Positions 4,080 through 13,029 of a DNA stretch of 64,000 bases are shown here, one piece after another. The notes under the pieces were generated by a model. That model was not told the origin of the DNA and ran no database searches. It worked only from the letters and a program-made list of their open reading frames with translations. Made by a program: the position numbers and the translations under genes. The first letter of the stretch is position 1; the number at the start of each line of letters is the position of its first letter. The stretch is taken from contig NZ_CP032674.1 in NCBI RefSeq assembly GCF_021730305.1, positions 2,961,001 to 3,025,000 of the forward strand, in the 5' to 3' direction. Origin of the DNA: Xanthobacter sp. YC-JY1 (GTDB lineage Bacteria > Pseudomonadota > Alphaproteobacteria > Rhizobiales > Xanthobacteraceae).

Positions 4080-4898
4080 ATGATCGACCTGCGCGAGGGC
4101 GTGCGCACACGCGCCCCGGGGTCTGGAGACCTGTGCGCCATCGCCGTGATGGCGAAGGCGTCCGCACCGGGCCGCACCAAGACCCGGCTCTGTCCGCCGC
4201 TCGATCCCAGGGAGGCGGCGGCGTTCAACACCGCCTTCATCCAGGACATCGTGGGCAACATCCTCGCCGCCGGGCGAATGGCGCCCGTCACGCCCTACGT
4301 GGCCTATGGGCCGGCGGGGGCCGCGCATTTCTTCGATGCCGTGCTGCCGCCGGGCGTCGGCCGGATGGAGGCAGTGGCCCCCGACTTCGGCGCCTGCCTG
4401 ACGATGACCCTCGCTCACCTCTTCGACCTCGGACATCCCGCAGCGGCCGTATTGAATGCCGACAGCCCGACATTGCCCCCCGCCCTGCTCGCGGAACTCG
4501 CCGATGTGCTGGCCCAGCCCGGCGACCGCGCGGTTCTCGGCCCGTCCACGGACGGCGGCTATTACGTACTCGGCCTGAAAGCGCCGCACTGGCACCTGTT
4601 CGCAGACATCGACTGGAGCACTGAGCGCGTCTTTGAGCAAACGCTGGCCCGCGCCGCCGAGATCGGCCTTCCCGTCCATGTGCTGCCGCCCTGGTACGAC
4701 GTGGACGATGCGCAGGCGCTGCGCCTGCTCCATGGCGAGTTGATCGCAGGCGTCCCCTTCGGCACCGCGCCCCTCGCCCGCGGCGCGGCGCGCAACAGCG
4801 CGGACCTGCTCCGGCGCCTCCTCGCCCAGGGACGCCTCGCCGAACGGCTCGGCCTGCCCGTTGCCGATATCGATGCTCCCTGCCGCCGCGCCTCCTGA
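4080..4898 (+). CDS. TIGR04282-type (DUF2064) nucleotidyl/glycosyl transferase
   Basis: The 272-residue protein is read from the ATG after a GGGGA ribosome site. Its GT-A-like nucleotide-sugar fold begins with AVMAKASAPGRTKTRL, a pyrophosphorylase-like loop, and continues with VLNADSPTLP (the Asp-x-Asp-like region), GPSTDGGYYVLGL and WYDVDDAQ. This family is repeatedly found beside radical SAM enzymes and is annotated in databases as an arsenosugar-biosynthesis transferase. It opens a five-gene run with a radical SAM enzyme, a second glycosyltransferase, a nucleoside phosphorylase and a sugar kinase. The donor and acceptor are unknown. No arsenic methyltransferase is present here, so the arsenosugar label should not be taken literally. 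Confidence 0.87.
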   Translation: MIDLREGVRTRAPGSGDLCAIAVMAKASAPGRTKTRLCPPLDPREAAAFNTAFIQDIVGNILAAGRMAPVTPYVAYGPAGAAHFFDAVLPPGVGRMEAVAPDFGACLTMTLAHLFDLGHPAAAVLNADSPTLPPALLAELADVLAQPGDRAVLGPSTDGGYYVLGLKAPHWHLFADIDWSTERVFEQTLARAAEIGLPVHVLPPWYDVDDAQALRLLHGELIAGVPFGTAPLARGAARNSADLLRRLLAQGRLAERLGLPVADIDAPCRRAS

Positions 4899-4936
4899 TC
4901 GCGGCCGCCTCCCCCTTCCAGCAACGGATCCTGACG

Positions 4937-6004
4937 ATGAACGCTCTCACCCCCGGCGCGCCCGCCGTCTCCCGCCGCTATTTCGAGCGGGCGGAAACGG
5001 ACCGCACCAGCGTGCCGGTCCGAAAGCCGGTTTGCCTCTATCTGGAGACCACGAACCGCTGCAACCTGCTCTGCACCACCTGCCCGCGCACCTATGAGGA
5101 GCTCGAGCCGCCGGCGGACATGAGCTGGGAGCTGTTCACCTCCATCGTGGACCAGATCCCCGATCTCGAACGCTGCGTGCTGCATGGTGTCGGCGAGCCC
5201 ATGCTGGTGCCGGACCTCGACCGCATGGTCCGCTATCTCAAGGACCGCGGCACCTACGTGCTGTTCAACACCAACGGCACGGTGCTGACCGAGAAGAACG
5301 GCCGGGCGATGATCGCCGCCGGCCTCGACGAATTGCGCGTCTCCCTCGATGCCGCCAACGCGCATTCCTACCGCGCCATCCGCGGCAAGAACTACTTCGA
5401 CCGCATCCTGAAGAATGTGCGCGCCTTCCGTGACCTTCAGGAGCGCGAGGGCCACACCAATCCCCGCGTCTCCGCCTGGCTGACGGGCCTCAAGGAGACG
5501 ATCTCCGAACTACCGGACTTCGTGCGTGTGGCGGCGGAGCTGGGGGTGCGGGAAGTCTATCTTCAGCGCCTCGTCTTCTTCGAGCAGGAGGCCATCGGCC
5601 GGGCCCGCCCGGACCAGGCGCTCTATGAGCAGATCAACACCGACGAGGCCGCCTATATCGCCGAGGCGGCGCGGGTGGCGGCGGAGCTGGGGATGGTTTT
5701 CTCCGCCTCCGGCGCGGCATCCGAGCCCGGCATGAGCCTGAAGCGGCCGGAGGAAGGCTCGCCCTGGTCCATGTGCCGGCGGCCGTGGACGGTGATGTAC
5801 TTCACCGCCAACGGGCGCGCCCTGCCCTGCTGCATCGCGCCCTTCTCCCAGCGCGGCTACGAGAACTACACGCTGGGCGATGCGACAACCCAGTCGCTGT
5901 CCGACATCTGGCACGGCGACGCCTACAAGGCGTTCCGCGCCGGCCTCCTCTCCGAAACGCCGCCGGCCGCCTGTGCCAATTGCGGCCTGCGCTGGAGCCT
6001 CTAG
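4937..6004 (+). CDS. Radical SAM enzyme with C-terminal SPASM-like domain
   Basis: The 355-residue protein carries the radical SAM cluster motif C-x3-C-x2-C at residues 42, 46 and 49 (RCNLLCTTCP), followed by the GE-motif-like HGVGEPML and a TIM-barrel core. The C-terminal third has several further cysteines (SMCRRPW, LPCCIAP, AACANCG) in a SPASM-type arrangement expected to hold auxiliary Fe-S clusters. SPASM proteins modify peptides or small molecules by radical chemistry and release 5'-deoxyadenosine. No precursor peptide is visible nearby. The stop codon directly abuts the next gene's ATG, so it is translationally linked to a glycosyltransferase. Unlike ArsS, no DUF3641 region is apparent. 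Confidence 0.9.
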   Translation: MNALTPGAPAVSRRYFERAETDRTSVPVRKPVCLYLETTNRCNLLCTTCPRTYEELEPPADMSWELFTSIVDQIPDLERCVLHGVGEPMLVPDLDRMVRYLKDRGTYVLFNTNGTVLTEKNGRAMIAAGLDELRVSLDAANAHSYRAIRGKNYFDRILKNVRAFRDLQEREGHTNPRVSAWLTGLKETISELPDFVRVAAELGVREVYLQRLVFFEQEAIGRARPDQALYEQINTDEAAYIAEAARVAAELGMVFSASGAASEPGMSLKRPEEGSPWSMCRRPWTVMYFTANGRALPCCIAPFSQRGYENYTLGDATTQSLSDIWHGDAYKAFRAGLLSETPPAACANCGLRWSL

Positions 6005-6745
6005 ATGGCCCGCGCAGGCGCTCCGAGGGTCGCGCTCGTCATCCCGACGCTGAACGAGTCCGAGGCCATTGCCGGCACCCTCGCGGAGATTCCGACCGGC
6101 GTCGTGGATCTCGTGGTGGTCGCCGATGGCGGCTCCATCGACGGCACGCAGGAGATTGCGGCGGCGGCGGGGGCCACCGTGCTCGCCTCCGGCCGCGGCT
6201 TTGGCCGTGCCTGCCTGGAAGGCGTGTGCGAGGCCCGCGACGCCGACATCATCGCCTTCATGGATGCGGATGGGGCGGACGACCCTGCCTTCCTGCCGGC
6301 GCTGCTGAAGCCGCTCGTCGATGGGAAAGCCGACTTCGCCATCGCCTCCCGCACCCGTGGTGTGCGCGAGCCCGGCGCCATGGCCTGGCATCAGGTCGCG
6401 GCGGGGCGCGCGGCGGGCTTCGGCATCCGCGCCCTCTACGGCGTCGCCTATTCGGACATGTGCACCTTCCGCGCCATCCGCCGCGACGCGCTGGTCGGTC
6501 TCGGCATGCGGGAACTCACCTACGGCTGGAACATCGAGATGCAGATGCGCGCCGCCCGCGCCGGGCTCGCCATCGTCGAAATTCCCGTCGCCTACCGCCG
6601 CCGCAGGGGCGGCGTCTCGAAGGTCGCCGGCAACCTCTCCACCACCCTGACCGCCGGCACCCGCATCGTCTCCACCTTCCTGCGGGTCGCGACCGGAAAA
6701 GCCCCGCCAGCGGCCACCCCCGCCGTCGCGCCGAACAAGATGTGA
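6005..6745 (+). CDS. Family 2 glycosyltransferase
   Basis: The 246-residue protein has a GT2 fold: VALVIPTLNESEAIAGTL at the N-terminus, VVADGGSIDGT, and the metal-binding FMDADGADDP near residue 85. A dolichol-phosphate-mannose-synthase-like central region follows (YSDMCTFRAIRRDAL, then YGWNIEMQ) and a basic RRRRGGVSKV near the C-terminus. There is no convincing transmembrane segment, so it is probably soluble or peripheral. Its start codon follows the radical SAM stop with no gap. It probably transfers an activated sugar to the product of the upstream radical SAM step; acceptor and donor are inferred, not shown. Confidence 0.88.
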   Translation: MARAGAPRVALVIPTLNESEAIAGTLAEIPTGVVDLVVVADGGSIDGTQEIAAAAGATVLASGRGFGRACLEGVCEARDADIIAFMDADGADDPAFLPALLKPLVDGKADFAIASRTRGVREPGAMAWHQVAAGRAAGFGIRALYGVAYSDMCTFRAIRRDALVGLGMRELTYGWNIEMQMRAARAGLAIVEIPVAYRRRRGGVSKVAGNLSTTLTAGTRIVSTFLRVATGKAPPAATPAVAPNKM

Positions 6746-6754
6746 GTGATCGCC

Positions 6755-7645
6755 ATGCTGCTGCAGCCCCTCGACGAAGCCGACGACATCTCGCGCATGC
6801 GCGCCGTGCCTGTACCCTCCAGTTTCCTGCCGTCCGGTTTCCTGCCGCTGATCGAGCGGGCGGACCATCGCGCGCCGTCGGTGTTCCGGCCCGAGAACAT
6901 GATGCGCGAGGCGCGCCGCCAGAAAGGGCTCGACGCCGGCCCGGTGCCGCGCGTGGTGCTGCTCGATCCCGACGGCGACATGGTGGACTATGTGCGCGCG
7001 CATTTCGGCGCCGTCCGCTCGCCCTACTGGGCCTGCTACCACACGGACATGTGGACGTGGGAGGTGGAGGGCCTCTCCTTCGGCATCGTCGGCTATGCGG
7101 TGGGGGCGTCCTTCTCCGTGCTGGTGGCGGAGCAGGCCTTCGTCTGCGGCTGCGAGCTGCTGATCTCGGTCGCCTCGGCCGGGCAGATCGCCGAGCACGC
7201 GCCGCCCTCCTACCACATCATCATCGACCGGGCGCTGCGCGACGAGGGCACGAGCTACCACTACCTGCCGCCCGCGCCCTTCGCCCCGGCGGACCCGGAG
7301 GTCATCACCATCGCCCGCGCCGCCTGCAGCGAGGAAGCGGGGCCGGTGCTGACCGGCGCCACCTGGACCACCGACGCCCCCTTCCGCGAAACCGAGGCCG
7401 CCATCGCGCGTCGCAAGGCCGAGGGCCTGCTGGCGGTGGAGATGGAAGCCGCCGCGCTCTACGCCTTCGCCCACGCGCAGGCCAAGCCTGTGCTGTGCCT
7501 CGCCCACGTCACCAACCAGCTCGGCCGGGTGCATGGCGACTTCGAGAAGGGCGACCACAACGGCGCCGCGCGCTCCATCGCCCTCGCCGCCGGCTTCGCC
7601 ACCGCCTGGATGGCGCACTGCGCCGAAACCGTTTCCCTGCGCTGA
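6755..7645 (+). CDS. Nucleoside phosphorylase (PNP/UDP family)
   Basis: The 296-residue protein is a purine-nucleoside/uridine phosphorylase relative. The family signatures are GATWTTDAPFRET (substrate and phosphate region) and VEMEAAALYAFA (the ribose-binding Glu-Met-Glu element). An in-frame GTG 9 bp upstream, directly after the preceding stop, is an alternative start. The enzyme would cleave the glycosidic bond of an adenosine-like nucleoside with phosphate. Next to a radical SAM enzyme and a thioribose-kinase-like protein it could either salvage 5'-deoxyadenosine or strip adenine from an adenosyl-modified product. The usual recycling genes mtnA and an aldolase are absent here. Confidence 0.87.
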   Translation: MLLQPLDEADDISRMRAVPVPSSFLPSGFLPLIERADHRAPSVFRPENMMREARRQKGLDAGPVPRVVLLDPDGDMVDYVRAHFGAVRSPYWACYHTDMWTWEVEGLSFGIVGYAVGASFSVLVAEQAFVCGCELLISVASAGQIAEHAPPSYHIIIDRALRDEGTSYHYLPPAPFAPADPEVITIARAACSEEAGPVLTGATWTTDAPFRETEAAIARRKAEGLLAVEMEAAALYAFAHAQAKPVLCLAHVTNQLGRVHGDFEKGDHNGAARSIALAAGFATAWMAHCAETVSLR

Positions 7646-7658
7646 GAGGACGGCCCCG

Positions 7659-8921
7659 ATGCTCGACCGCACCGCCTATCTCGCCCTCGACGCCGTGAGC
7701 CTGCCACGCCGCCTCGGCGGACGGCCGGAGCTTCTGGACCGGCTCGGGCCGGCCGAGGCCTGGCAGGTGCGCGAGGTGGGGGACGGCAACCTCAATCTCG
7801 TCTTCATCGTCGAGGGGCCAAAGGGCTCCATCGTGGTGAAGCAGGCCCTGCCCTATGCCCGCGTGGTGGGCGAGAGCTGGCCCATGTCCCTCGACCGCGC
7901 CTTCTTCGAGCACGAAGCGCTCTCGCGCCTCGGCGCGCGCGATCCCGGCCGCACGCCGGAACTCATCGTCTTCGATCCCGCCCAGGCGATGCTCGCCATG
8001 GAGCACCTGACCCCGCACAAGGTGGCGCGCCGCGCTTTCATGGAGGGGGAGGAGCTGCCGCTCCTCGGCACGCATCTCGGGCTCTACCTCGCCCGCACGC
8101 TCTTCCGGGGCTCGGACTGGTCCATGCCCACGACGGCGCGCAAGGCCGATCTCGCCTTGTTCGCGGGCAATGCGGAGCTCGCCGGTATCACCGAGGAACT
8201 GGTCTTCTCCGACCCGTTCAAGGCCGCCGCCCTCAACCGGCACACGCCGGGGCTCGAAGACATCGCCGCCGCCTTCCGCGCCGACCGCCCGCTGAAGCTC
8301 GCGGCAGTGGAGATGAAGGCGCGGTTTGCGACCTGCGCCGAGACGCTTCTGCATGGCGACCTGCACACCGGATCGGTGATGGCGACGCCCACCGACACGC
8401 GGGTGATCGACGCCGAGTTCGCCCTCTATGGCCCCATGGGCTTCGACGTGGGCGTATGCCTCGCCAACCTCTGGATGGCCGCCTTCGCGCAGGAGGCCCA
8501 CCGCACCGACGCGCGGGCGGCGGCTACCTATTGCGAATTCCTGCTGGCCACCGCCGGCATCCTGTGGCGGACCTTCGAGGCGGAATTCTCCCGCCTCTGG
8601 GCGAGCGAACGCACCGGCATCCTCGGCGGCGCCGACCTGTTCGAGGCGCAGGGGGACGAGGCCGGCGCGAAGGCGGCCCTGACGACCCATCTCACGTCGG
8701 TCTGGCAGGATGCGCTGGGCTTCGCCGGCATGGAGATCAGCCGCCGCATCCTCGGCCTTGCCCACATAGCCGAGTTCGAGACCATCGCGGACATCGGCCT
8801 GCGCGCGCGACTGGAACGGCGCGCCCTCGCCTTCGGCCGGCACCTCGCGCTAAACCGGCGGCAGATCCCCTCCATCGAGGCGGCGAACCTCCTCGCGGAA
8901 ACGCAAAGGGCGCGGCCATGA
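7659..8921 (+). CDS. mtnK: S-methyl-5-thioribose kinase-like sugar kinase
   Basis: The 420-residue protein matches the MtnK branch of the choline-kinase/APH fold: EVGDGNLNLVFIV and SIVVKQALPY in the N-lobe, the catalytic loop LLHGDLHTGS, and VIDAEFALYGPMGFDVG, the metal-binding element. Start is the ATG after GAGAGGACGG. Known MtnK phosphorylates C1 of 5-methylthioribose, and homologues also accept 5-deoxyribose. It sits 13 bp after a nucleoside phosphorylase. A phosphorylase already yields the 1-phosphate, so the kinase is redundant in plain salvage, which argues for a different or branched substrate. It ends 16 bp before a convergent gene. Confidence 0.85.
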   Translation: MLDRTAYLALDAVSLPRRLGGRPELLDRLGPAEAWQVREVGDGNLNLVFIVEGPKGSIVVKQALPYARVVGESWPMSLDRAFFEHEALSRLGARDPGRTPELIVFDPAQAMLAMEHLTPHKVARRAFMEGEELPLLGTHLGLYLARTLFRGSDWSMPTTARKADLALFAGNAELAGITEELVFSDPFKAAALNRHTPGLEDIAAAFRADRPLKLAAVEMKARFATCAETLLHGDLHTGSVMATPTDTRVIDAEFALYGPMGFDVGVCLANLWMAAFAQEAHRTDARAAATYCEFLLATAGILWRTFEAEFSRLWASERTGILGGADLFEAQGDEAGAKAALTTHLTSVWQDALGFAGMEISRRILGLAHIAEFETIADIGLRARLERRALAFGRHLALNRRQIPSIEAANLLAETQRARP

Positions 8922-9408: not shown

Positions 9409-9518
9409 GAAAAGACTCCATGTTCGTTTATCTGACGATATACATCGCCATATACGATCCGCGGTCAATATTTATTACACGATCCAAAACTAAATATAAT
9501 AAACCCGAAGCAAGAGTG
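9409..9518. promoter_or_regulatory. AT-rich divergent promoter region (PRC-barrel / cytochrome b561)
   Basis: This 110-bp gap is markedly AT-rich compared with everything around it, with runs such as CAATATTTATTAC and AAATATAATAAA. It must hold promoters for both divergent genes. The near-repeats CGATATACATCG and CCATATACGATC look like an imperfect regulator site. No GTAACC-type ECF element is present. Confidence 0.5.
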
Positions 9519-10190
9519 ATGCACATGAAAGAACATACATCAAGACGCATGCATCCGCTTGCCTTGCGGATCATGCACTGGACCAACGCCATCGCCATGA
9601 TCGTGATGATCGGCAGCGGCTGGAAAATCTACAATGACGAGGTGATCTTCGGCTTCCTGCACTTCCCGCAGCCGATCGTGCTCGGCGTGTGGGCCCAGCA
9701 CGCGCTGCAGTGGCACTTCTTCGGCATGTGGGTGCTGGTGCTGAACGGCCTCGCTTATCTCGCCTACGGCATCGCGACCGGCCGCTTCGCCCGCCTGCTC
9801 TTCCCCATTCGCCCGCGCGAAGTGATCGCCGAGGCCGTCGCCGCTTTGACCTTCCGCCTCAAGCACCAGGATCTGACCCACTACAATGCGGTGCAGAAGG
9901 TGCTCTATGTGGGTGTCATCACCATCATCGTGGTGCAGGTGGCCTCCGGCCTCGCCATCTGGAAGCCGGTGCAGTTCTCCGGGCTCGTCTCGATGTTCGG
10001 CGGCTTCCAGTCCGCACGGCTGATCCACTTCCTCGGCATGGCGACCATCGTGCTGTTCATGGTGGTGCACGTGGCCCTGGCGCTGCTGGTGCCGAAGACG
10101 CTGCTCGCCATGTTCACCGGCGGCCCCCGCCTGCCCGACCCCGCGCCCCTGCACGCCGATGGCGCGCCCGCGCCCGATCCCTCGCGCTGA
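9519..10190 (+). CDS. Cytochrome b561-family membrane protein
   Basis: The 223-residue protein has four membrane spans and paired histidines typical of di-heme cytochrome b561/Ni-Fe-hydrogenase-type subunits: MHPLALRIMHWTNAIAM in helix 1, the HALQWHFFGMW region, and ARLIHFLGMATIVLFMVVHVALAL near the end. I start at the ATG that follows AAGCAAGAG; a second ATG lies 6 bp on. The next gene, 15 bp downstream, encodes a Tat-exported molybdopterin oxidoreductase, so this protein probably passes quinol electrons to it. This resembles MsrPQ in logic, but the membrane partner is b561-type. Confidence 0.9.
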   Translation: MHMKEHTSRRMHPLALRIMHWTNAIAMIVMIGSGWKIYNDEVIFGFLHFPQPIVLGVWAQHALQWHFFGMWVLVLNGLAYLAYGIATGRFARLLFPIRPREVIAEAVAALTFRLKHQDLTHYNAVQKVLYVGVITIIVVQVASGLAIWKPVQFSGLVSMFGGFQSARLIHFLGMATIVLFMVVHVALALLVPKTLLAMFTGGPRLPDPAPLHADGAPAPDPSR

Positions 10191-10205: not shown

Positions 10206-10997
10206 ATGTCCCTCCGCTCCTTCTTCCGGCCAAACCGGACCTCCATTGCGCGACCCGACCAGAGCCTCATGGTCGAGAACCGGGCCCTTCTCGAGCGTAT
10301 CGACCGCCGCAAGCTGCTGCGCGGCTCGCTGAGCCTCGGCGCGCTGTCGCTCCTCGCCGGCTGCGACATCTCCAATCGCGAAGAAGTCCAGGGGGTTCTA
10401 CGAACTGTCTCCGACTTCAACGACGGCGTGCAGGCCGCTTTGTTCGACCCGAAGCGGCTCGCCCCCACCTATTCCCGCGACCTCGTGGTGAAACCGCCAC
10501 GCTTCAACGCCTATTACGAGATCGACGAGGTGAAGCCGGTGGACCTCTCCACCTGGAAGCTGGAGCTGTCCGGCCTCGTGAAGGACAAGCGGCCGTGGAC
10601 GCTGGATCGCGTCAATGCCCTGCCGCAGCAGGAAGTGATCATCCGCCACATCTGCGTGGAGGGATGGGATTATATCGGCCAGTGGTCCGGCCCGAACCTG
10701 AGGGATTTCCTCACCCGCGTGGGCGCGGATCTCTCGGCCAAATACATCGCCTTCTACGGCAATGACGACTACATGGAGAGCATAGACATGGCCTCCGCGC
10801 TCCATCCGCAGACCATCCTCGCCACGCATTATGCGGGCGAGCCCATCACAGACCCGTTCGGCGCGCCCATGCGGCTGCGCACGGCGGTGAAGCTCGGGTT
10901 CAAGAATCCCAAATGGATCCGCGCCATCGAGGTGACCAACACCTACCCCCTCGGCTTCTGGGAGAAGCAGGGCTTCAACTGGTTCGCCGGCCTGTGA
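10206..10997 (+). CDS. Tat-exported molybdopterin-dependent oxidoreductase (sulfite oxidase fold)
   Basis: The 263-residue protein has a twin-arginine signal (IDRRKLLRG then a hydrophobic run). That run ends in LLAGC, which could also be a lipobox. The SUOX-type molybdopterin domain follows, with the probable Mo-ligand Cys in HICVEGWDYIGQWSG and cofactor-contacting segments ATHYAGEPITDPFGAPMRLR and KLGFKNPKWI. It lacks a C-terminal dimerisation domain, like MsrP (YedY). The substrate may be a sulfoxide or another oxidised compound; this is inferred from the fold and the preceding cytochrome b561 gene, with which it forms an operon. Confidence 0.88.
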   Translation: MSLRSFFRPNRTSIARPDQSLMVENRALLERIDRRKLLRGSLSLGALSLLAGCDISNREEVQGVLRTVSDFNDGVQAALFDPKRLAPTYSRDLVVKPPRFNAYYEIDEVKPVDLSTWKLELSGLVKDKRPWTLDRVNALPQQEVIIRHICVEGWDYIGQWSGPNLRDFLTRVGADLSAKYIAFYGNDDYMESIDMASALHPQTILATHYAGEPITDPFGAPMRLRTAVKLGFKNPKWIRAIEVTNTYPLGFWEKQGFNWFAGL

Positions 10998-11016: not shown

Positions 11017-13029
11017 ATGGTGTCCCTGCCGAGCCTTCTCTCGTGCATCCCGCTGGCGCTCCTCCTGTGGGTCACGCCGGGCTGGTTTCTGGCGCGCGGA
11101 CTGGGCCAAGGCCGAACGGCGGCGCTGGCGCTGGCGCCCGCGCTCGGCTGGGCGACGCAGAACCCCGCCGCCCTCGCCCTGGCCCATCTGTTCGGCCTTT
11201 CGCCCGCCGTGGTCATTGGATCGGCGGCGCTGGTGAGCCTGTGCGCGCTCGCCCTTCCGCGTGCCTCGGCTGGAGCGCGATTTCCCGTACTCGCGCTCGC
11301 CTTCGCCGGGCTGCTAGCGCTGGTGCCTATGCTGGGCGTGCTGCCGAAGGTGATGCCGGACGGGGTCATCGCGCTCGCCTCCCCCATCTACGACCACGCC
11401 AAGATCATCCTGATCGACGAGATCGCACAGAACGGCACCATCCCACCCGCCAATCCGGTGTTCGGGGCAGGCGGCGCGGCGGGGACGGTGGCCTATTATT
11501 ATCTCTGGCACTTCGGCGCGGCGGAACTCGCCATCCTGTCCGGCGCGCACGGCTGGGCGGCAGATGCGGCGGCCACCTGGTTCACCGGCTTCGCAGCGCT
11601 CGCGCTGGTAGGGGCTCTCGCCTTCCGACTGCGCCCCGGCATGTCCGCCCCACTCCTTGCGCTCCTCGCCGCATCGGCGGGCTCGCTGCGGCCGGTGGCG
11701 GCGGCGCTCTTCGGCGGGGCGCGGGTGGATTTCGCGCTTGAACCCGCCTCGGGCCTCGCCGGCCTCCTCTACCAGACGAGCTGGAGCCCGCATCATGTCG
11801 CCTCCGCCACGGCCTGCGTGACCGCGGTGCTGCTGATGGCACGGTTGCGCACGGGCTCCGGTGCCGGGCCAGGGGCGGTGATTGCGGGGCTGATCGGGCT
11901 CGCCGCAGCAGCGGCCTTCGGCAGTTCCCTGTGGGTGGGCGGCGTCACCTTCGCGATGGCGGGGACGACGGCGGCGCTGGTGCTGGCATTCTCCCGCCCG
12001 GCGAAGGGCCGCCTGCGCTTTCTCGCGGCGCTCGCGGGCGCGGCGCTCGTGGCGCTGGTGCTGGTCGCCCCTCTGCTGGTGGCGCAGATCCATGCGGCGG
12101 CGGCACGGGGCGGCGGCACGCCGCTTCAGTTCGCGCCCCTGCCCGTGCTCGGCCCCGGATGGACGGAAGCCGCACGCGCGGTGCTCGATCCCCTCGCCTA
12201 TTGGCTGGTGCTGCTGCCGGTGGAATTCCCCGCCAACCTGTTCGCGGGGGTGGCGGGCCTCGCTCTCGTGCTGGCCGGGCGCACGGGCGGCAAGCCGGCC
12301 CGGCGGCTCGCGCCGCCACTGGCGGCGCTGGCGATTGTCGCGCTGGCGGTGAGCGCCACCCTGCAGAGCACGGCGGGAGAGAACAACGATCTCGGCTGGC
12401 GCGCCGTGCTGCCCGCCATTCTGGTGCTGGCAGCCTTCGCGGGCGCGGCACTGTCGGCGGCACTGTCTTGGGCCGTGCAATCGATGCGCGCTCGGCAAGG
12501 TCGCGTCGGTCTCGCCGTCGGTCTCGCTCTTGTTGCTCTCGGACTGCCGGACACCTTCGCCCTCACCCACCGCAACATCGTGGGCGAACCGAGCACAGAC
12601 GGCCGCGTCTTCGCCGACGACCCGGCTCTGTGGCGGGCAGTGCGACGGGAGATCGGTCCTGAGGTGCGGATCGCCAGCAATCCGGCGCGGCTGGAAAAGC
12701 TGACGCCCTGGCCCATCAACCTGTCGTGGGCCCTCCTGTCGCGCCGCCGCTCGTGCTTCGGCGGGCCGGAGATGGCGCTCGCCTTCGCCCCACTCTCGGC
12801 GGCGGAGCGCGCTGAAGCGGCGATGCTCTTTGAACGGGTTTTCGCTGGCACCGGAACGGCGGAGGACGTTGCGACCTTGCGCCGGACCTTCGGCTGCGGC
12901 GCCATCGTCGTCACCGCGCAGGATGGCGCCTGGAGTGCCGATCCCTTCGCGTCCAGCCCGCTCTATCGGCTGGTGGAGGAAGAAGATGGTCGGTGGCGCA
13001 TCTATGTGGCGAGCGAGCCCGTGCGCTGA
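11017..13029 (+). CDS. Large polytopic membrane protein, uncharacterised (GT-C/DUF2298-like)
   Basis: The 670-residue protein has roughly a dozen hydrophobic segments and a soluble C-terminal tail of about 130 residues. The region SPIYDHAKIILIDEI ... PPANPVFGAG ... VAYYYLWHF resembles the conserved loops of GT-C-type glycosyltransferases and of DUF2298 proteins. An acidic residue in an early external loop and the YYY run are suggestive. I do not recognise a named family with confidence. It starts 19 bp after the molybdo-enzyme, so co-transcription is likely, but a functional link is not obvious. A perfect terminator hairpin follows. Confidence 0.6.
   Translation: MVSLPSLLSCIPLALLLWVTPGWFLARGLGQGRTAALALAPALGWATQNPAALALAHLFGLSPAVVIGSAALVSLCALALPRASAGARFPVLALAFAGLLALVPMLGVLPKVMPDGVIALASPIYDHAKIILIDEIAQNGTIPPANPVFGAGGAAGTVAYYYLWHFGAAELAILSGAHGWAADAAATWFTGFAALALVGALAFRLRPGMSAPLLALLAASAGSLRPVAAALFGGARVDFALEPASGLAGLLYQTSWSPHHVASATACVTAVLLMARLRTGSGAGPGAVIAGLIGLAAAAAFGSSLWVGGVTFAMAGTTAALVLAFSRPAKGRLRFLAALAGAALVALVLVAPLLVAQIHAAAARGGGTPLQFAPLPVLGPGWTEAARAVLDPLAYWLVLLPVEFPANLFAGVAGLALVLAGRTGGKPARRLAPPLAALAIVALAVSATLQSTAGENNDLGWRAVLPAILVLAAFAGAALSAALSWAVQSMRARQGRVGLAVGLALVALGLPDTFALTHRNIVGEPSTDGRVFADDPALWRAVRREIGPEVRIASNPARLEKLTPWPINLSWALLSRRRSCFGGPEMALAFAPLSAAERAEAAMLFERVFAGTGTAEDVATLRRTFGCGAIVVTAQDGAWSADPFASSPLYRLVEEEDGRWRIYVASEPVR

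Follow-up and report, generated by a model that had tools for sequence, protein, structure and literature searches.

A radical SAM and glycosyltransferase gene cassette of Xanthobacter and a tentative pathway to a lipid-linked, 5-modified pentofuranose

What a radical S-adenosylmethionine (SAM) enzyme, two proteins of sugar-transferase type, a phosphorylase-like protein and a methylthioribose kinase may accomplish together is the question raised by a compact locus of Xanthobacter sp. YC-JY1. The locus lies within the window analysed here, a stretch of 64,000 nucleotides (nt) of contig NZ_CP032674.1 (positions 2,961,001 to 3,025,000, forward strand), and comprises five plus-strand open reading frames (ORFs), P0001 to P0005 (Table 1), the start of the last being inferred. 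The original prediction of five same-strand, nearly gapless genes is confirmed, the intergenic gaps being 38, 0, 0 and 13 nt, and the family names given at that time (TIGR04282, radical SAM, GT2, the purine nucleoside phosphorylase or PNP family, and MtnK) are borne out by family scans. A scan for promoters and terminators returned 0 and 0 (chance expectation, 0.4 and 1.6), and the open PMC literature that was searched yielded no paper on such a cassette. The answer proposed here, with slightly less than even confidence, is that the product of the cassette is a lipid-linked pentofuranose, either 5-deoxy or 5-methylthio, which is added to a cell-surface glycan. The observations behind this proposal are the gene content, the co-inheritance, the salvage genes that were not found and the sequence and fold relationships; from these, all of the enzymatic reactions are inferred, as are substrate and acceptor.

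The pattern of inheritance within the genus is the first line of evidence. Among 14 Xanthobacter-genus genomes, the radical SAM enzyme, the PNP-like protein (expectation value, E, 1e-10), MtnK, the TIGR04282 protein, the GT2 orthologue and a membrane protein encoded downstream, MP670, are common to the same nine (G000, G001, G002, G004, G005, G006, G008, G009 and G012), the GT2 orthologue at an identity of at least 82% and MP670 being partial at a contig end in G005. The intact cassette genes and MP670 are missing from the same five genomes (G003, G007, G010, G011 and G013), in which the GT2 query retrieves only paralogues of at most 38% identity. This nine-versus-five split gives a Fisher p of about 5e-4, uncorrected for kinship. 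Because all five occur jointly in nine of the 14 genomes, their adjacency is not a matter of chance, and the earlier view of a dedicated, co-inherited cassette, probably for a glycosylated ribose-derived product, gains support. The cassette has probably been lost in G011, since a truncated TIGR04282 remnant (L157:9038-9361) lies there beside the same upstream flank of LysR, AhpD-like and flavoprotein genes. P0002 is 99% identical to the radical SAM protein of X. aminoxidans.

The radical SAM family extends to 12 of 61 genomes (the source genome and relatives, E 1e-30), to two of 385 genomes drawn from the class, the source genome included (E 1e-60), and to 207 places in a GTDB scan; the best 80 of these 207 places, from which the named loci are taken, fall in Xanthobacter, Methylobacterium, Bradyrhizobium, Bosea, Roseomonas, Rhodopila, Sphingomonas and other genera. 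Out of 89 loci collected, eight (L014-L021) were left out of later counts, namely six repeat contigs and two non-repeats of the same genus that both carry the full cassette (L017 of G012 and L020 of G002); a further 27 of the remaining 81 were left out for having less than 3.5 kb on one side. The 54 loci with adequate flanks were chosen for carrying the radical SAM gene, and all of them contain a TIGR04282 gene and 53 a GT2 gene, always on the strand of the radical SAM gene. MP450, a second membrane protein, is found in 39 of these loci and MP670 in 12, with neither in three. That 51 of the 54 loci carry one and none carries both suggests that MP450 and MP670 replace each other, with only two or three swaps on the tree. 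Beyond Xanthobacter, what recurs beside the radical SAM gene is thus a core of TIGR04282, GT2 and either MP450 or MP670, both membrane proteins of GT-C type. A PNP gene is present in 23 loci (21 on the same strand) and MtnK in five, every one from Xanthobacter. The expected recurrence of the five genes elsewhere therefore holds for TIGR04282, radical SAM and GT2, whereas all five together were found, among the loci examined, only in Xanthobacter. On a quick tree of the radical SAM proteins, the proximity of PNP is gained or lost at least 12 times, compared with two changes for MP450 and three for MP670. By genome, the PNP subfamily is present in 11 of the 12 radical SAM carriers and in six of 49 non-carriers, one of the six being a fragment with a stop; by genus, it is present in three of the four carrier genera. 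The set of 61 genomes is phylogenetically nested (14 belong to one genus), and Fisher values computed on it overstate independence.

The kinase offers the clue to the pathway. P0005 scores 450 bits with the MtnK model TIGR01767 (cut-off 275), aligns along the greater part of its sequence with 2olc, a solved MtnK structure, and keeps the HGDLHTGS and RR motifs. In the 14 genus genomes, MtnA (TIGR00512, E 1e-20), MtnP (E 1e-20) and MtnN (E 1e-8) were each found in none, while the same searches were positive in nine, nine and eight control genomes, respectively. The MtnA search is assumed to reach DrdI as well, a 5-deoxyribose-1-phosphate isomerase described in passages of PMC6079011 as an MtnA paralogue. 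Because none of the three enzymes was found, there is in the genus no known route by which the sugar-1-phosphate made by MtnK could enter salvage, and the earlier remark that ordinary salvage leaves the kinase unexplained is upheld. MtnP on the one hand and a nucleosidase with MtnK on the other lead to one type of compound, a ribose-1-phosphate modified at position 5. Organisms with MtnP would thus need no MtnK, because MtnP gives the 1-phosphate directly. Nine of the 12 carriers among the 61 genomes have MtnK without MtnP, and the other three (G015, G017 and G033, the carriers outside Xanthobacter covered by the MtnP search) have MtnP without MtnK; this either-or rule is suggestive only. A block in G031 (L150:7926-16520) bears further on the role of the kinase. 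It contains in order MtnK (62% identity), a PRC-like gene (by eye), cytochrome b561, an MsrP-like gene and MP670, and about 1.4 kb beyond it lies a GT2/TIGR04282 pair of the cassette families, the TIGR04282 protein being 58% and the GT2 protein 71% identical to those of L074. The radical SAM enzyme, PNP, MtnA and MtnP were not detected in G031. Since MtnK is kept there beside glycosyltransferase genes without a detected radical SAM enzyme or PNP, G031 ties MtnK to glycosylation genes and not to the radical enzyme.

The PNP-like protein that precedes the kinase is assigned to its superfamily by Pfam (PNP_UDP_1, 99 bits), and none of its ten NCBIfam matches exceeds the cut-off (MtnN, 21.4 versus 73.8 bits). 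The phosphate-binding arginines of hexameric PNPs (R24, R43 and R87 in E. coli numbering) correspond to M79, T100 and S141 of P0004 in an alignment with the PNP 1odi, and the PGDP.R loop of PNPs reads DPDGDM. Because phosphate-binding residues are replaced, hydrolysis is favoured over phosphorolysis on sequence grounds, in keeping with the kinase that follows. The stretches LDPDGD, ALRDEGTS, WTTDAP and DFEKG are invariant in P0004 and its relatives. The structural model (predicted local distance difference test, pLDDT, 83) has the expected fold; all 50 listed Foldseek matches are uridine, purine or adenosine phosphorylases within a narrow range of E-values, so that the fold search does not decide between nucleosidase and phosphorylase. 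Fold matches alone do not favour a nucleosidase, and the case rests on the residues. In three fetched loci where the PNP-like gene lies apart from the radical SAM gene (L144:8831-10281, L147:4537-5963 and L149:3756-5170), a methyltransferase-like gene immediately precedes it; the domain scan covered the methyltransferase-like gene of L144. This adjacency suggests that the P0004 family handles SAM-derived nucleosides such as S-adenosylhomocysteine.

The remaining proteins point to sugar activation and transfer. P0001 passes the TIGR04282 cut-off marginally (136.1 versus 134 bits) and matches Pfam DUF2064; the NCBI name of TIGR04282 is arsenosugar glycosyltransferase, yet the family is CofC-like, the score of P0001 with the CofC model TIGR03552 itself being 26.5 bits, under the cut-off of 105. 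Its sole PDB match at E 0.001 is 3cgx, a putative nucleotide-diphospho-sugar transferase. P0003 is a GT2 protein (Pfam, 67 bits) whose best NCBIfam match, TIGR04182 (AglJ), reaches 110 bits, under the cut-off of 325, and whose PDB matches are glucosyl-3-phosphoglycerate synthase and dolichol monophosphate mannose synthase. MP670 has no Pfam and no NCBIfam match. Its model (pLDDT 79) finds the arabinosyltransferase AftA as the best Foldseek match (E 1e-6), followed by DPY19 and oligosaccharyltransferases, and on this basis MP670 is proposed to be a GT-C glycosyltransferase using a lipid-linked donor. MP450 narrowly passes the GT87 gathering score in five of the six members scanned and matches, below cut-off, the polyprenol-phosphomannose-dependent GT-C families MptA or MptB. 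A second radical SAM protein of about 450 residues, which had seemed to lie beside P0002 in many loci, was rejected; it is the membrane protein MP450, the families having been merged by spurious ORFs.

The radical SAM enzyme itself matches Pfam Radical_SAM and SPASM and carries the CX3CX2C motif as C42/C46/C49. Its C-terminal domain has four cysteines that resemble cluster ligands in the alignment (C280, C298, C346 and C349), which, by the usual ligand rule, is a single-cluster twitch arrangement and not a full SPASM domain; the twitch model NF033640 matches at residues 278-349, below its cut-off. The original assignment as a SPASM enzyme consequently stands as a Pfam match and gives way to twitch in the C-terminal domain. 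C42, C46, C49, C280 and C298 are kept in all 82 aligned radical SAM sequences and C346 and C349 in 80, the other two having gaps. The best PDB sequence matches are BtrN (spanning only the radical SAM core, residues 35-148), DesII, PqqE and cytosylglucuronate decarboxylase, followed by tetraether lipid synthase and MoaA. It is plausible from these relatives that P0002 tailors a sugar. Two further cysteines outside the expected ligands, C33 and C299, are invariant in the same 82 sequences, and one of these spare residues might donate hydrogen if P0002 is an epimerase.

Taken in order, these parts would form the following pathway. The PNP-like protein, acting as a nucleosidase, would free a 5-modified ribose from one of several nucleosides: methylthioadenosine, the 5'-deoxyadenosine that the radical SAM enzyme produces, or a deaminated form of either. 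MtnK would phosphorylate C1, the TIGR04282 protein would turn the sugar-1-phosphate into a nucleotide sugar, and the GT2 protein would move the sugar onto polyprenyl phosphate. The GT-C protein (MP670 here, the GT87-like MP450 elsewhere) would then transfer it outside the membrane, and the twitch radical SAM enzyme may tailor the sugar, for example by changing the configuration of a ring carbon. The support for this pathway comes from the co-occurrence of six genes, the want of a salvage exit, the MtnK/MtnP pattern in the 12 carriers, the G031 block, the GT-C resemblance of MP670 and MP450, the alternation of these two proteins among the 54 loci and the lost phosphate-binding residues.

Several observations weigh against this pathway. 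The N-terminal alignment of P0004, which holds two of the three lost arginines, is weak, and most matches of a 17-sequence profile begin after this part, so that M79 and T100 are less sure than S141. In a second alignment with 1odi, the base-site aspartate of DeoD-type enzymes falls on Asn257 of P0004, which disfavours adenine; adenine is therefore not assured as the base, and a deaminated nucleoside is possible. PNP, at 23 of 54 loci, lies outside the wider core. MtnK (E 1e-20) is found in only three of 26 carrier genomes outside Xanthobacter (these include L032, whose record is G017 again), once as a fragment and once in two pieces, and was not found in the other 23, so that MtnK does not look like a core step. 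The MtnP-or-MtnK rule rests on 12 related genomes, nine from one genus, and one or the other enzyme also occurs in 34 of 49 non-carriers (Fisher p 0.028). The match of MP670 to AftA has a template modelling (TM) score of only about 0.5, and MP670 also occurs without the radical SAM enzyme in G021, G024, G030 and G031, in G024 and G030 with cytochrome and MsrP-like genes only and in G021 with neither, so its tie to the cassette is not exclusive. PqqE, among the nearest solved relatives of P0002, acts on a peptide.

Table 1. Cassette genes, their neighbours and partner-set examples (window coordinates unless a locus is named)
Feature	Position	Strand	Family and proposed role
P0001	4080..4898	+	TIGR04282/DUF2064 protein, CofC-like; proposed sugar-1-phosphate nucleotidyltransferase
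P0002	4937..6004	+	Radical SAM enzyme, C-terminal domain of twitch type (SPASM-related); proposed to tailor a sugar as epimerase or dehydrogenase
P0003	6005..6745	+	GT2 (AglJ/DPM-like); proposed polyprenyl-phosphate sugar synthase
P0004	6746..7645	+	PNP/UDP-phosphorylase superfamily, lacking the arginines with which DeoD-type enzymes bind phosphate; proposed nucleosidase
P0005	~7659..8921	+	MtnK (methylthioribose/5-deoxyribose 1-kinase)
Cytochrome b561 (Ni_hydr_CYTB)	9420..10190	+	Pfam; set A, frequent cassette neighbour
MsrP-like molybdopterin oxidoreductase	10206..10997	+	Pfam Oxidored_molyb; set A; proposed periplasmic sulfoxide reductase
MP670	11017..13029	+	Multi-helix membrane protein; proposed GT-C glycosyltransferase with lipid-linked donor
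Partner-set examples	L053:10849-19034; L056:2544-5777; window:9420-10997		

The core is flanked by one of three partner sets in 51 of the 54 loci, one locus having both A and B and three having none. Set A, with cytochrome b561 and an MsrP-like enzyme, is found in 27 loci; set B, in which SelD is fused to an oxidoreductase domain, in 13, often with a putative ABC transporter of selenate/phosphonate type, a methyltransferase and another radical SAM protein; and set C, with homologues of Rv1679, Rv1680 and Rv1681, in 12. In the window, the set A oxidoreductase fails the MsrP model NF003767 (82.8 versus 207 bits) and is MsrP-like only. A neighbour of this kind would be in keeping with a thioether prone to oxidation to the sulfoxide, and a sulfur or selenium theme behind sets B and C is possible. 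A more specific version of the pathway can be drawn from this, speculative and rather unlikely as a whole, in which Alphaproteobacteria place on their surface a 5-methylthio- (or 5-deoxy-) pentofuranose derived from SAM by-products, by a pathway that shares its logic with mycobacterial methylthioxylose capping. The configuration of this sugar would be fixed by twitch radical SAM enzymes of a new family, its thioether would be kept reduced by the MsrP-like genes of set A, and sets B and C would point to sulfur or even selenium in it.

Farther downstream (window:13512-14800), a gene for an extracytoplasmic function (ECF) sigma factor is followed by a gene with a Xanthobacter counterpart at L023:18209-18847, which shares a homology cluster with L079:6859-7503, a match to NrsF, the negative regulator of sigma F. 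In L079 and L097, too, the cassette has members of the sigma factor and NrsF-type clusters in its vicinity, and stress control of the locus is possible. Two adjoining minus-strand ORFs resembling alpha/beta-hydrolases (window:14860-16918), similar in sequence by eye, are apparently a tandem duplication.

Of the other explanations for the cassette, one that is unlikely on balance holds that the core (TIGR04282, GT-C, radical SAM and GT2) adds an ordinary hexose or pentose modified by the radical SAM enzyme, and that the PNP-like protein and MtnK only clear the released 5'-deoxyadenosine. PNP and MtnK are indeed missing from many core loci or genomes, and the nearest solved relatives of P0002 include BtrN, DesII and cytosylglucuronate decarboxylase, whose substrates are presumably aminocyclitols and nucleotide or nucleoside sugars. 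The related kinase DrdK has, according to passages of PMC6079011, similar specificity constants for 5-deoxyribose and methylthioribose. With no MtnA-type isomerase found in any of the 14 genus genomes, however, phosphorylation would be a dead end for clearance; E. coli without the shunt excretes free 5-deoxyribose, as passages of PMC10986504 report; and G031 retains MtnK where neither PNP nor a radical SAM enzyme of the P0002 family was detected. Simple 5'-deoxyadenosine salvage as the whole story was dropped, the isomerase not having been found in the 14 genomes, and the earlier alternative of a dedicated salvage module is weakened, with no isomerase for the kinase to feed and MtnK kept beside glycosyltransferase genes in G031.

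An arsenosugar-like route would call on a similar list of parts: the radical SAM enzyme to link 5'-deoxyadenosyl with an acceptor, a phosphorylase to strip off the adenine, and the transferases to glycosylate the ribose that is left. The TIGR04282 cut-off is passed, by 2 bits. The route is nevertheless improbable: in the carrier G015, a 99%-complete genome, no PNP was found at E 1e-10, ArsS was found in none of the 14 genomes, P0003 fails TIGR04283 (43.8 versus 182 bits) and P0002 has a twitch-type C-terminus. The core step first envisaged, adenosylation of an acceptor with an obligatory phosphorylase, is not supported, in view of the G015 and ArsS results and of the carriers in which MtnK was not found. 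The adenosylhopane enzymes HpnH and HpnG, another adenosyl-transfer pair, were also considered and rejected, their models lying far under cut-off (TIGR03470, 40 versus 225 bits; TIGR03468, 26.5 versus 187 bits). Very improbable, finally, is a peptide or metalloenzyme maturase, for example one serving the neighbouring molybdoenzyme. The best NCBIfam match of P0002 is a tungsten-enzyme maturase family (TIGR04317, 150 bits), 27 of 54 loci have a molybdoenzyme close by and PqqE is among the nearest solved relatives; the score, however, is below half of the cut-off of 380, and TIGR04282 (54 of 54) and GT2 (53 of 54) are linked more tightly to the radical SAM gene than the molybdoenzyme is. P0002 stays under the cut-off in each of the 25 best among its 48 NCBIfam matches, and the gaps between the five genes leave no room for a precursor-peptide gene. 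A SPASM peptide maturase was rejected on these grounds, in agreement with the original expectation that P0002 would fall outside the known peptide-modifying families.

The proposed lipid-linked pentofuranose pathway can be set beside several known systems. Arsenosugar biosynthesis (ArsM/ArsS, TIGR04282/TIGR04283) shares with the cassette the TIGR04282 family and a radical SAM enzyme, and differs in the family of that enzyme, in ArsS and in TIGR04283. The ArsS model TIGR04167 (E 1e-10) was found in none of the 14 genus genomes, with five controls positive, and is not among the 25 best of the 48 NCBIfam matches of P0002; no ArsM occurs among the five cassette genes, to which that search was limited. 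The components of the cassette accord with lipid-linked sugar chemistry and not with the making of arsenosugars. A three-component pentofuranose addition involving GT136 likewise combines periplasmic pentofuranosylation, a polyprenyl phosphate donor and a GT-C enzyme, but its donor, in the passages of PMC11127046 that describe it, derives from phosphoribosyl pyrophosphate through a polyprenyl phosphoribose synthase and a phosphatase, and no such gene is among the five. The dihydroxyacetone phosphate (DHAP) shunt and methionine salvage, as outlined in passages of PMC6079011, PMC10986504 and PMC6302742, resemble the cassette in the action of a nucleosidase and an MtnK-type kinase on 5'-deoxynucleoside waste. 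The cassette differs in having no aldolase, in the MtnA-type isomerase not found in the genus and in the glycosylation-type genes that stand in their place.

Another counterpart is the methylthioxylose (MTX) capping of lipoarabinomannan by MtxS (Rv0539) and MtxT (Rv0541c) in mycobacteria such as the tuberculosis bacillus. MtxS is a GT2 protein, and a TIGR04282-like/DUF2064 gene, Rv0540, and a methylthioadenosine phosphorylase gene presumably lie beside mtxS and mtxT. Compared by description, MTX capping and the cassette have in common a 5'-modified adenosine as starting point, a lipid-linked pentofuranose donor, a lipid-linked-sugar synthase and a GT-C transferase outside the membrane (passages of PMC11127046, PMC8780516 and PMC8081860, the last two naming MtxS and MtxT). 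The cassette, in contrast, belongs to Gram-negative Alphaproteobacteria, includes a radical SAM enzyme and has a nucleosidase-like PNP and MtnK replacing MtnP. Whether methylthioxylose addition exists beyond the assembly of lipoarabinomannan is called unclear in a 2024 paper (PMC11127046). The cassette provides concrete and genetically tractable candidates from soil bacteria for an addition of the methylthioxylose type outside lipoarabinomannan. Read in this way, it would also offer a reason for an MtnK without a downstream salvage enzyme, and a substrate class for an unassigned radical SAM family with relatives at 207 pattern-matched GTDB places.

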